In this document: positions 4,254 through 17,525 of the stretch, piece by piece | How positions within the stretch are numbered: position 1 is the stretch's first letter | Layout of the letters: every line of letters starts with the position of its first letter | Assembly (NCBI GenBank): GCA_019192485.1 | Contig: JAHCMJ010000006.1 | Location: 1-38,345, forward strand | Direction: 5' to 3' | Source of the DNA: Cyclobacteriaceae bacterium HetDA_MAG_MS6 | Lineage (GTDB): Bacteria; Bacteroidota; Bacteroidia; Cytophagales; Cyclobacteriaceae | DNA length: 38,345 nucleotides | Translations under genes and position numbers: made by a program | The notes under the pieces: model-generated | Seen by the model: the letters and a program-made list of their open reading frames with translations, nothing else | Told to the model about the DNA's origin: nothing | Databases searched by the model: none

Positions 4254-4922
4254 GTGAGTGAAGTAGATAAGAAATTTTCGGTATTCTGTCATGCCGAAAA
4301 ACTTTTTTGTGAAAATGGGATCAAAATGACAAGGGTCCAGGACATTGCCACTGCATCGCAAACTAGCAAAAAGACTATATATCAGATTTTTAGGAGCAAA
4401 GATCGCCTGGTAGAAGAGTTGTATTTGCTGAAGATGCAAAAAATAGGCTCTACAGCTGAAAAAATCATAAATGGTAAGGGTTCTTTCGACTTGCTTCTCG
4501 CCAACTATGTTGTACTAATCAATGAGGAGTTTAAATACTTCTCTTTCAAGCTAGTTCAAGAGCTGCGACTCGATTATCCATTAGTAGCTGATACGGCAAA
4601 TAACCATTTGAAGGAGGCCATCTTTAATCGGTTTCAGCGACTATTGGAGATTGGGAGGAAAGAAGGACGGATGCGGCCTGATATTTCTATTGAGGCTATT
4701 ATGATGTCCTATAGAGGAGCTCTGGAAGACTTTCTCCTAGGTCGCTACCTACGATCGTTGCCAGAAGACTTTTTGTTGAAAAGGAGCCTGCTATCGATGC
4801 TTGTTGAGGGCTTGATCACCATGTTTAGAGGTATACTTACAGATGAGGCAGAAAAATCTTTTAACAAAAGGATTAGCGCTATTGATAGCCTTAAACCCTA
4901 TCTTTCTGAAGTCCGGTCATGA
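4254..4922 (+). CDS. TetR/AcrR family transcriptional regulator
   Basis: 222 residues, typical of TetR repressors. The N-terminal DNA-binding domain covers roughly residues 8-55: NGIKMTRVQDIA, then the turn and recognition helix SQTSKKTIYQIFRSKDRL. The remainder is an all-helical ligand-binding domain. The start is GTG at 4254, preceded by GGGAGA; an in-frame TAA at 4221 rules out a longer form, and the next ATG (within NGIKM) would cut off part of the DNA-binding domain. The stop overlaps the start of cca by 4 nt (ATGA), so the pair is translationally coupled. The ligand is unknown. Likely targets are its own promoter or divergent ligA, but I see no clear palindromic operator in the 60-bp gap. 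Confidence 0.9.
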   Translation: MSEVDKKFSVFCHAEKLFCENGIKMTRVQDIATASQTSKKTIYQIFRSKDRLVEELYLLKMQKIGSTAEKIINGKGSFDLLLANYVVLINEEFKYFSFKLVQELRLDYPLVADTANNHLKEAIFNRFQRLLEIGRKEGRMRPDISIEAIMMSYRGALEDFLLGRYLRSLPEDFLLKRSLLSMLVEGLITMFRGILTDEAEKSFNKRISAIDSLKPYLSEVRS

Positions 4923-14024: not shown

Positions 14025-15467
14025 CTAATCCGATACCATATCTTCCTCCTCGTCGACCTTCAACTCGTAAGGATAATTAAACATATGGTCTTTTTTGATG
14101 ATATCTGCTACTCTACGAGGCACTTGGTCTTCCCAACCTGACTTTCCGCTGCCGATCTGCTCCAGGACATTGTCCGAAATAATATGTAGTAGATCTACGT
14201 TTGCCCCTTCGAGATTAGCGACTTTATTGTTGTCTAACAAATGCTGATACAGATGCGTAAGATGTTTTGGTGGTTCGAACTCCGCAGAGGTGAGGACAGT
14301 TTTGCCGTCTTTGGCAACAGAAGGGTACACATAGAGCTTCACATTGCTTCCGAATAGTCTGCTAAAGGACTCGAAAATCCCACCACTGAGGTTTTGGTAA
14401 TAGCTCTCGTCGAAGATTCTAGCCAGATTGTTGATACCAAGGATGATCCCCATTTTGCATCCTTTGGTAAATTTGCTAAGGTAGGAAGCTAGTTTGTAAT
14501 GTTCCTGATAGTTAGAAATCAATACGGTCTGACCTAAAGAACAGAGCAAATCAACGCGATCGAGAAAATCAGTTTCGTCAACATGTCCCTCTTCCAGCGT
14601 GAGATCATTTAAGGTGAGTTCGGTCAAGGCAACGGTGTCCTTCATATCCACATCCTTTTCCTTTTTAATGGCGCGGAGCCCGCAGATCATCATATCGACA
14701 TTGACGTTGGTGACTGGCCTGAACCGACCTCTCAGGACCATTACATTCTTCTTATAGAGTTTTTCTGAAGCCTGTAGTACGTTGCCCTTCAGATCAAACA
14801 TGGTAGCATGTGTCAGGCCATTTTTTACAAGTAGCAAACTCATCAGACGGTTATCGACGTGATGAAAATCAGGCCCCTCGATCCGAAACATGTCAATCTC
14901 CAGTCGATCGGAGTGGAGATTGTCTCTAAGTGAATTGATAATATCCTCTGGCTCTGTATAAAAGTAGCAGGCATGGATCAGATTCACACCGACGATACCC
15001 AGAACTTGCTGCTGCCATAATGTATCATTATCCTTCAATATTACATGGATCACACAGTCATTCGGTTCGGAGTTGGGATGCTTTTGAAAGCGAGTACCGA
15101 TCCAGCCATGTCCTTCATTTGTTTTCTTGTAGTTGATGGTCTCTACCGTGTTGGCAAATGCGAAGAAATGCGACCTTTTTGTGCGATGAGTTAGTCGCTG
15201 AGACAGTAGGTTATACTCCTTGGTCAGCATTTTGTGGAGCTTGTCCTCGCAGACGTAGCGCTTGGTCTTGCCATAGATAGCATCACTAAAAGTCATGTCA
15301 TAGGCTGACATCGTCTTAGCGATGGTGCCAGAGGCTGCACCAGCTTTGAAGAAATAGTCCGCTACTTCCTGTCCTCCTCCGATTTCAGCGATAGTGCCGT
15401 ATATCCTCTCGTCCAGGTTGAGTTGTAATGCCTTTTCCTTAGTAGTTAGTTTCTTGAATGCTTCCAC
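14025..15467 (-). CDS. Conserved cytoplasmic protein of unknown function (480 residues)
   Basis: 480 residues, no signal peptide or membrane helix. I recognise it as a family widespread in Bacteroidota but cannot assign a function; names attached to relatives in databases are inconsistent. Highly conserved-looking segments are IYGTIAEIGGGQEVADYFF, AASGTIAKTMSAYDMTFSDA and IYGKTKRYVCEDKLHKML near the N-terminus. HFFAFANTVETINY, GHGWIGTRFQ, LGIVGVNLIHACYF and the central RLMSLLLVKNGLTHATMFD follow. The C-terminal third (KMGIILGINNLARIFDESYY) contains Gly-rich strands and ends in a Glu/Asp-rich tail. No classical nucleotide-binding motif stands out. The start is GTG at 15465-15467. It lies 149 bp downstream of the acyl-CoA dehydrogenase, separated by a terminator, so it is probably its own unit. 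Confidence 0.8.
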   Translation of the reverse strand: MEAFKKLTTKEKALQLNLDERIYGTIAEIGGGQEVADYFFKAGAASGTIAKTMSAYDMTFSDAIYGKTKRYVCEDKLHKMLTKEYNLLSQRLTHRTKRSHFFAFANTVETINYKKTNEGHGWIGTRFQKHPNSEPNDCVIHVILKDNDTLWQQQVLGIVGVNLIHACYFYTEPEDIINSLRDNLHSDRLEIDMFRIEGPDFHHVDNRLMSLLLVKNGLTHATMFDLKGNVLQASEKLYKKNVMVLRGRFRPVTNVNVDMMICGLRAIKKEKDVDMKDTVALTELTLNDLTLEEGHVDETDFLDRVDLLCSLGQTVLISNYQEHYKLASYLSKFTKGCKMGIILGINNLARIFDESYYQNLSGGIFESFSRLFGSNVKLYVYPSVAKDGKTVLTSAEFEPPKHLTHLYQHLLDNNKVANLEGANVDLLHIISDNVLEQIGSGKSGWEDQVPRRVADIIKKDHMFNYPYELKVDEEEDMVSD

Positions 15468-15615: not shown

Positions 15616-17424
15616 TTATCCGTAAAGCGAGTAAAGGAATTTGTTCTGTTCGATCATGCTATCTGCTATGTTCCTTCTCAGGTTTTTGCTATTGATAGGG
15701 TTGACCTTGGTAAACCTTTTCATACCCATCAACATCACTTTAAGCTCATCACCTTCTGTAAAGCAGGCAACGGCTTCATCGCCAGCGGCTTTTATCTTCT
15801 GCACGGCATGTGAAAGATACAGTTTGGTTATATCTGTGAATACGCTATTGGCTTCCTCGCCGGTTTGACTGATAAGTTTTTGAGTACGTAGTATGGTGGA
15901 TTCCGCTACGTAGACCTCGATGATCATATCAGCTATGTTCATTAAAACCTCTTGTTCCTGCTCCATTTTCGGTCCAAAGATTTGAGCTGCTTTGCCTGCG
16001 ACCATCAGAATAGCCTTCTTTAGCTTTTTCACTACATCCATTTCTTCTGCAAGAGGCTGCGTGAAATCAGGTGTCTCGAAAGATGGTATTCCTGTAAGCT
16101 CTTTGCCTACTGCCATTGCTGGTTCCATTAGGTTGAGCTCTCCTTTCATAGCTCTCTTAAAGATCATGCCTACGAGGAGCATTCTATTGATTTCGTTGGT
16201 TCCTTCGTAAATACGTGTAATTCTGGCGTCGCGATAAGCTCTTGCCATCGGTGCTTCCTCGGAAAATCCCATGCCACCGTATACCTGTACACCTTCATCC
16301 ACGACATAGTCTAAAGCCTCAGAGCCGTGTATTTTGATGATTGCACATTCTATCGCAAATTGCTCAACGCCTTTGAGTTTGGCTTGGCTTTCGTCCATAC
16401 CTTCAGCGATAAGCGCTTCAATTTTGTCGTCTATATTTTGTCCTGCGCGATACGATGCGGATTCGATAGCAAAGGTTTTAACGGCCATCTCTGCTAACTT
16501 GTATTTGATAGCACCAAATGACGAGATAGATACTCCGAACTGCTTGCGTTCGTTGGCGTAGTTAACGGACTGCGATGCTACGGCTTTGCATCCTCCGATC
16601 ACGCCACAACCCAATTTGATTCTACCAATATTTAATATGTTAACTGCAATTTTAAATCCATTCTCTCTTTCTGAAAGCATGTTTTCTACCGGAACCTTGG
16701 TATCATTGAAGAAGACCTGTCTGGTGGAGGAGCCTTTGATTCCGAGTTTTCTTTCCTCGTCATTCATGGTGATGCCACCAAAATCTTTCTCTACCAGAAA
16801 AGCAGTCAAGTTTTTGTCATCGTCAATTTTGGCGAACACAATGAAAAGGTCTGCAAATCCCGCATTGGAAATCCACATTTTCTGGCCGTTGATGATGTAG
16901 TGGTTACCATCCTCAGTCAGTTTGGCTTTTGTTTTTCCTGAATTGGCATCAGATCCAGCATCAGGTTCGGTTAAACAGTAGCAAGCTTTCCATTCTCCTG
17001 AAGCCAATTTTGGAAGGTATTTAGATTTTTGCTCTTCAGAGCCATAGTAAAGTATAGGTAAAGTGCCAATACCAGTGTGTGCTCCATAAGCAGTAGAAAA
17101 TGAACCAGAGGAAGCTACGATGTCAGCGATCAACATACCTGTATTGAAACTCATGCCTAGCCCTCCGTACTCTTCCGGGATATTTATGCCAAGTAACCCT
17201 AGTTCTCCTGCTTTAGTCATCAGGTCAGGCATAAGACCCGTTTCCAAACTGTCAATACGCTCGATATTAGGGGTGATCTCGGTATCAATAAAATCTTGTG
17301 TGGCTGCTGCCATCATTTTTTGCTCTTCACTAAATTCCTCGGGAATGAATACTTCCTGGTATTCGGACTCTCTGATGAGGAATTCACCACCCTTGATGGC
17401 TTCTTTTTGTGCTACTGCTTCCAT
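15616..17424 (-). CDS. Acyl-CoA dehydrogenase with C-terminal extension (602 residues)
   Basis: FAD-dependent first step of fatty acid beta-oxidation. The classical fold occupies roughly residues 25-420. FAD and substrate motifs are CYCLTEPDAGSDANSGKTKA and IINGQKMWISNAG; the catalytic base Glu is in RITRIYEGTNEINRM. About 180 extra C-terminal helical residues follow, as in very-long-chain enzymes and the common 600-residue Bacteroidota form; long-chain preference is an inference. The ATG start gives the usual N-terminus (GGEFLIRE ... EVFIPEEFSEEQ). It is not next to thiolase or hydroxyacyl-CoA dehydrogenase genes, with which it often clusters. Its promoter carries two 16-bp boxes around the -7 element, suggesting repression by a fatty-acid-responsive regulator. 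Confidence 0.95.
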   Translation of the reverse strand: MEAVAQKEAIKGGEFLIRESEYQEVFIPEEFSEEQKMMAAATQDFIDTEITPNIERIDSLETGLMPDLMTKAGELGLLGINIPEEYGGLGMSFNTGMLIADIVASSGSFSTAYGAHTGIGTLPILYYGSEEQKSKYLPKLASGEWKACYCLTEPDAGSDANSGKTKAKLTEDGNHYIINGQKMWISNAGFADLFIVFAKIDDDKNLTAFLVEKDFGGITMNDEERKLGIKGSSTRQVFFNDTKVPVENMLSERENGFKIAVNILNIGRIKLGCGVIGGCKAVASQSVNYANERKQFGVSISSFGAIKYKLAEMAVKTFAIESASYRAGQNIDDKIEALIAEGMDESQAKLKGVEQFAIECAIIKIHGSEALDYVVDEGVQVYGGMGFSEEAPMARAYRDARITRIYEGTNEINRMLLVGMIFKRAMKGELNLMEPAMAVGKELTGIPSFETPDFTQPLAEEMDVVKKLKKAILMVAGKAAQIFGPKMEQEQEVLMNIADMIIEVYVAESTILRTQKLISQTGEEANSVFTDITKLYLSHAVQKIKAAGDEAVACFTEGDELKVMLMGMKRFTKVNPINSKNLRRNIADSMIEQNKFLYSLYG

Positions 17425-17459: not shown

Positions 17460-17488
17460 AATTAATATGCTCTGCATGCATACTAATT
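17460..17488. promoter_or_regulatory. Imperfect palindrome overlapping the predicted acyl-CoA dehydrogenase transcription start
   Basis: AATTAATATGC at 17460-17470 is the inverted complement of GCATACTAATT at 17478-17488 with one mismatch, separated by 7 bp. It contains the proximal 16-bp box and covers the expected transcription start of the minus-strand promoter. This is consistent with a dimeric repressor site; the regulator is not in the window or is not identified. Confidence 0.5.
17473..17488. repeat. 16-bp box, proximal copy (putative operator)
   Basis: TGCATGCATACTAATT, identical to 17510-17525. The two copies are direct repeats 37 bp apart start-to-start. TGCATGCA within the box is self-complementary. 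This copy lies just downstream of the -7 element, over the predicted transcription start. Confidence 0.75.
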
Positions 17489-17496
17489 CAAATATA
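17489..17496 (-). promoter_or_regulatory. Bacteroidota -7 promoter element for acyl-CoA dehydrogenase
   Basis: On the minus strand this is TATATTTG, an exact TAnnTTTG match, 64 bp upstream of the ATG. It starts at the base after the proximal 16-bp box. The expected -33 region (about 17516-17520) falls inside the distal box and does not read TTTG, so the core promoter may be weak. Confidence 0.55.
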
Positions 17497-17509
17497 GAGA
17501 TAAATGTTA

Positions 17510-17525
17510 TGCATGCATACTAATT
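17510..17525. repeat. 16-bp box, distal copy (putative operator)
   Basis: TGCATGCATACTAATT, an exact copy of 17473-17488. It includes the palindrome ATGCATGCAT (17509-17518) and covers the -33 position of the acyl-CoA dehydrogenase promoter. The two copies in a 53-bp span are far beyond chance for this window size. Confidence 0.75.

Follow-up and report, generated by a model that had tools for sequence, protein, structure and literature searches.

Twin boxes at a fadE promoter of a Cyclobacteriaceae bacterium are probably tandem operators of an autoregulated MarR-family repressor of beta-oxidation

Introduction

Autoregulated MarR repressors of a metabolic pathway are a kind of regulator that is already known, and the nearest analogues of the system described here are FabT and CouR. 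FabT of streptococci, enterococci and lactococci is a MarR-family repressor of fatty-acid metabolism that is autoregulated and heads its own operon (PMC13046290). The candidate regulator in the present study, encoded on contig C36, resembles FabT in belonging to the MarR family, in its association with fatty-acid metabolism, and in being the first gene of an operon that is probably under its own control. FabT represses fatty-acid synthesis with the aid of acyl-ACP, whereas the genes at issue here serve degradation, and the C36 operon contains fadB and fadA rather than the fab genes of a synthesis operon. Because the targets are degradation genes, release by acyl-CoA would be expected.

CouR (Rhodopseudomonas, Rhodococcus) shares the MarR fold. 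Its structures bound to a 23-mer operator (6c2s) and to p-coumaroyl-CoA (5cyv) set a precedent for a regulator that a CoA thioester releases; however, CouR governs p-coumarate degradation rather than beta-oxidation and has ~16–24% identity across the aligned region. MarR of E. coli and MepR of S. aureus are likewise winged-helix dimers, and their structures (5h3r and 4lln, respectively) were among the closest fold matches, but these proteins control drug efflux and stress through another operator and other targets. E. coli MarR, too, has two operator sites, over and after its own promoter; a literature search on marO returned no match. FadR (a GntR protein in E. coli, a TetR protein in Bacillus and Sulfolobus) and PsrA are functional counterparts that act on the same enzymes and respond to acyl-CoA, but they belong to different protein families and have different operators.

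In the literature that we searched, we found neither a description of the present regulon or operator nor a dedicated regulator of fatty-acid degradation in Bacteroidota, and the sole match to the operator core TATGCATGCATA concerned nematode genome editing; the search was limited in scope, and absence from it is not proof. The regulon and operator, which seem to be common in Bacteroidota, are apparently undescribed.

Results

Twin operators at the fadE promoter

We analysed the genome through pattern searches and individually retrieved regions. The window, meaning the whole stretch of 38,345 nucleotides under analysis, is contig C406 of a 4.69 Mb genome in 460 contigs. Only two 16-mers are present twice in the window, and one of them, TGCATGCATACTAATT, lies at 17473–17488 and 17510–17525. 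A preliminary description of this DNA had reported a 16-bp box exactly twice, 37 bp apart; searches of the window and of the genome confirmed the 37 bp start-to-start spacing and found no other exact copy genome-wide. Among genome-wide matches with 1–3 mismatches, several formed overlapping pairs on opposite strands, indicating a palindrome of which the 16-mer forms one side. Each box belongs to a 24-bp palindrome, wTTAGTATGCA/TGCATAMYAAw, which is plain in the sequences upstream of marR orthologues. The features of the promoter, in window coordinates, are as follows.

15616–17424, minus strand: fadE, acyl-CoA dehydrogenase of 602 aa, the controlled gene (NCBIfam NF058590 FadE, 787 bits; cut-off 600)
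17465–17488, minus-strand sequence AATTAGTATGCATGCAGAGCATAT: proximal operator, imperfect 24-bp palindrome containing the box at 17473–17488 (26.6 bits)
~17484, minus strand: predicted transcription start of fadE, ~60 bp before the start codon (from TAnnTTTG at −12 to −5)
17489–17496, minus strand: −7 element TATATTTG of the fadE promoter, between both operators (from the sequence; consensus TAnnTTTG, PMC9723704)
17502–17525, minus-strand sequence AATTAGTATGCATGCATAACATTT: distal operator, full 24-bp palindrome containing the box at 17510–17525 (33.9 bits)

The bit scores come from a symmetrised weight matrix (28.7 bits) built on 39 marR promoters of other genomes, with the genome under study left out. 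The third-best position in the window scored −3.0 bits, and 200 Markov-1 resamplings of the full window gave at most 16.8. The proximal box had been described as forming an imperfect palindrome with 17460–17470. The palindrome is indeed imperfect, but its second arm is 17465–17476. This arm, TGCAGAGCA on the minus strand, appears off-consensus; the TCTGCA/TGCAGA type of arm recurs in sites of relatives (both fadE boxes of G035, and G002, G012, G017, G027, G030 and G033).

The TAnnTTTG element was mapped to −12 to −5 in F. psychrophilum (PMC9723704), which places the fadE +1 near 17484. The promoter geometry otherwise agrees with the preliminary description: TATATTTG directly adjoins the proximal box on the minus strand, the computed start falls inside the proximal operator (−4 to +20), and the distal palindrome, predicted at −41 to −18, covers the −33 region. 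The position of the distal operator relative to the −7 element matches that in marR promoters. Control of the divergent DUF2141 gene (17651) was considered and rejected, the distal box being ~125 bp from its start and the best −7-like sequence ~100 bp from the box. On the same strand as fadE and ~150 bp downstream lies a gene for a 480-aa protein (14025–15467, minus) with no Pfam or NCBIfam match, which may share a transcript with fadE.

The marR gene and its own promoter

Among the closest operator copies outside the window was one before a MarR-family gene on contig C36 (7649–8119, minus). The preliminary description had noted that the regulator does not adjoin fadE, and this candidate indeed heads an operon elsewhere, in the order marR, a FadB-like 3-hydroxyacyl-CoA dehydrogenase/enoyl-CoA hydratase (799 aa), and a FadA-like thiolase (391 aa). 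Its product contains the MarR winged-helix domain (PF01047, 48.1 bits; cut-off 24.6), and its nearest named relatives are in Cyclobacteriaceae MAGs, Marinoscillum and Ekhidna, with 73% identity to the MarR of Marinoscillum furvescens. The predicted structure of an orthologue was a confident MarR fold (mean pLDDT 93.0) that matched DNA-bound MepR (4lln), MarR with its operator (5h3r), CouR with its 23-mer operator (6c2s), and CouR with p-coumaroyl-CoA (5cyv).

At E 0.001, 48 of 59 genomes contained relatives of this MarR, 45 of them with a strong match (E below 1e-30). The operator was present in the marR promoter of 42 of the 45 Cytophagales relatives with a strong match, and in 37 of those 42 promoters a −7-like element begins 15–18 bp from the operator centre. 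The exceptions were G014, whose operator is changed (see below), and G046 and G050, which have no clear box at marR though fadE is boxed in both. One group of marR promoters has an alternative tandem form, with boxes 29 bp apart that both lie upstream of the −7 element. A wider set of named Bacteroidota loci comprised Cytophagales, Flavobacteriales and others (including Dyadobacter, Larkinella, Flavobacterium and Flavobacteriaceae MAGs), with MarR identity down to 42%. In all 50, the operator stood upstream of marR, in its promoter (scores of 13.8–34.2 bits); a few of these loci share species with the genomes behind the matrix. A TAnnTTTG-like element nearly always follows the operator in this set, and fadB follows marR. 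A palindrome of 24 bp in the regulator's own promoter agrees with the operators of about 16–24 bp expected of the MarR family. We consider it very likely that the C36 MarR binds the operators; its co-occurrence with the fadE boxes and the concerted operator change in G014 (both below) support this indirectly.

Conservation of the bracket at fadE

The marR-fadB-fadA operon ends with fadE in many relatives. Genomes were compared by gene arrangement. Where MarR was present and fadE lay outside its operon, fadE operators occurred in 13/13 genomes, so that the boxes are kept upstream of orthologous fadE genes, the comparison proposed in the preliminary description. The boxes were found in 0/10 genomes with no strong MarR match and in 0/16 with fadE inside the marR operon. 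Fisher values for these contrasts (9e-7 and 1.5e-8) are indicative only, since related genomes are non-independent. A double bracket around the −7 element was seen in 10 of the 13, with spacings of 37 bp (G000, G007, G028, G032, G058), 32 bp (G035), 39 bp (G039), 41 bp (G012, G025) and 45 bp (G005). The remaining three had a single box near the start (G046, G050) or a box only at about −228 (G056).

Across the order, the tandem pattern was seen in 104/391 genomes (40/131 genera), and a reversed-pattern control gave zero matches in the same 391. Inspection of 66 tandem loci placed 44 before fadE, 19 before marR or fadB, and 2 before a DUF4442 gene, with 1 left unassigned. Spacing ranged from 37 to 51 bp in the 39 tandem loci with a recognisable −7 element between the boxes; thus, the element is bracketed without fixed helical phase, as plain occlusion predicts. 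A stricter tandem pattern applied phylum-wide matched 5/396 (4 marR promoters, 1 fadE), a figure that is not a rate because this pattern fails even on the window's own pair and is too strict. Duplication could yield two nearby exact 16-mers, and the boxes might then reflect chance or local duplication with no regulatory role. Given matrix scores far above those of resampled sequence, a place at the −7 element that is conserved across genera, and the empty reversed-pattern control, we regard that account as exceedingly improbable.

The preliminary description had named MarR- and TetR-family fatty-acid regulators as candidates. In other phyla, beta-oxidation is usually regulated by TetR proteins (e.g. 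PMC6449355), and the window itself contains a TetR gene (4254–4922, plus) that matches Bacillus FadR weakly (E 1.6e-5; 24.8 bits, cut-off 200). Hence the boxes could be operators of a TetR-family regulator of the FadR/PsrA type, such as this one, with the link to MarR fortuitous. However, the window holds no further copy of the box within three mismatches and so none at the TetR gene, which is thus not tied to the operator. Furthermore, the operator sits in the marR promoter in nearly all genomes that have it, and fadE lacks it where MarR is missing. The MarR part of the earlier proposal is favoured, because the operator tracks marR; the TetR part found no support from the operator, and we judge a TetR regulator very unlikely.

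A concerted operator change in G014

A pattern search of G014 failed to find the ordinary operator. Instead, the TATGCATGCATA core is replaced by TCGGCATGCCGA at both the marR promoter (two copies, 30 bp apart) and the Fe-S gene described below (one copy), and outer bases of the usual type flank each copy. Within one mismatch, that genome has no further match to TCGGCATGCCGA, and the TCGGCATGCCGA operator was absent, within one mismatch, from five other genomes. If separate loci share one regulator, their operators should change in concert, as they do here. No recognition-helix residue that would account for the switch was found: the helix barely changes, from the usual EARSLTRMLK to ESRSLSRMLK in G014, and G039 has the similar EARSLSRMLK with an ordinary operator.

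Other operator sites in this genome and its relatives

The operator targets in the genome under study were fadE (window), marR-fadBA (C36), a second acyl-CoA dehydrogenase (C59), and an Fe-S protein gene (C20/C403). A genome search, as the preliminary description had suggested, thus located further copies before beta-oxidation genes, namely the last three of these. Operators before multiple beta-oxidation genes are a feature of FadR-like regulons. The C59 enzyme (379 aa) has the −7 element TATATTTG 16 bp from the operator centre, and genes of its type carry the operator in just ~8 of 30 genomes. For the Fe-S protein, Pfam gives 4Fe-4S domains only; we assign it to the ETF:quinone-oxidoreductase kind.

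The Fe-S gene stands at the start of contig C403, across a contig break from its operator on C20 (G000 C20:12790–12813). C403 opens with 34 bases that duplicate the C20 end, and this overlap falls within a tRNA-Phe gene. Relatives display the intact order of operator, antisense tRNA-Phe and Fe-S gene, with the operator in 22/29 (the changed one included) and tRNA-Phe in 28/29. A transcript from a promoter under operator control here would be antisense to tRNA-Phe, which is encoded on the opposite strand. One could imagine that the MarR operator drives the Fe-S gene across the antisense tRNA-Phe and that a long, fatty-acid-induced leader complementary to tRNA-Phe couples fatty-acid use to translation, in an arrangement kept across Cytophagales, but we think this unlikely.

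The distance from operator centre to −7-like element is ~25–28 bp at several Fe-S genes, compared with 15–18 bp at marR. Some MarR proteins are activators. MarR could be an activator, or have a mixed role, at promoters such as that of the Fe-S gene, where roughly one extra helical turn separates the operator from the −7 element downstream. Against this idea, one of the fadE operators lies over the start site and the marR operator over the −33 region, both of which suit blocking, and bracket spacings that vary from 37 to 51 bp are unsuited to a fixed contact with polymerase. An activating role is therefore unlikely, and MarR likely acts by repression rather than activation.

Two further matches in this genome had no clear fatty-acid gene among their neighbours: L034 at 5175–5198 of C224 (30.8 bits), which neighbours a TonB-like gene and one with a fasciclin domain, and L035 at 2910–2933 of C267 (30.0 bits), which neighbours recJ and a gene without Pfam matches. 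In some relatives (L319, L320, L328), a DUF4442 gene has a tandem operator before it and, in one case, fadB after it; this gene is a possible additional member of the regulon. Single operators in relatives (L153, L155, L160) stand before a ceramidase-like gene (G032) and alpha/beta-hydrolase genes (G030, G027), whose products are possibly lipid-releasing enzymes.

Discussion

We propose, with a probability of roughly 0.84, that the twin boxes serve as tandem operators for a single autoregulated MarR protein, which represses beta-oxidation by blocking RNA polymerase and is probably released by acyl-CoA. Computation established the operator, showed that it recurs at the named genes and is conserved, and tied it to MarR; binding by this MarR, repression and the ligand are inferred. 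These results support the original reading of the bracket as a probable block of RNA polymerase at both ends. Points that count against the proposal are the lack of a clear marR box in G046 and G050, the sparse operator at C59-type dehydrogenases, the C224 and C267 matches, and a recognition helix that does not visibly follow the changed operator.

The proposed mechanism is as follows. The candidate MarR, which heads the marR-fadB-fadA operon, would also control that operon, and each 24-bp palindrome would take one MarR dimer. At fadE, one dimer would sit on the −33 region and a second on the transcription start, and RNA polymerase would thereby be denied the −7 element between them. Once fatty acids have been taken up, the dimers would be freed by a CoA thioester, probably a long-chain acyl-CoA; we hold acyl-CoA to be the likelier inducer with some reserve. 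Dimer release would then jointly induce fadE, fadBA, the second acyl-CoA dehydrogenase and the Fe-S (ETF:quinone oxidoreductase-like) gene.

In our judgement, the finding is broad and predictive but introduces no new principle. The lack of boxes where fadE lies in the operon, together with the concerted change in G014, offers a clean case for the study of regulon rewiring. A MarR with a strongly conserved operator, from Cyclobacteriaceae to Flavobacterium, provides a predictive regulon for fatty-acid degradation in Bacteroidota. Fish mucus and plasma strongly induce beta-oxidation genes in F. psychrophilum (PMC9723704), and the MarR regulon could bear on this induction.
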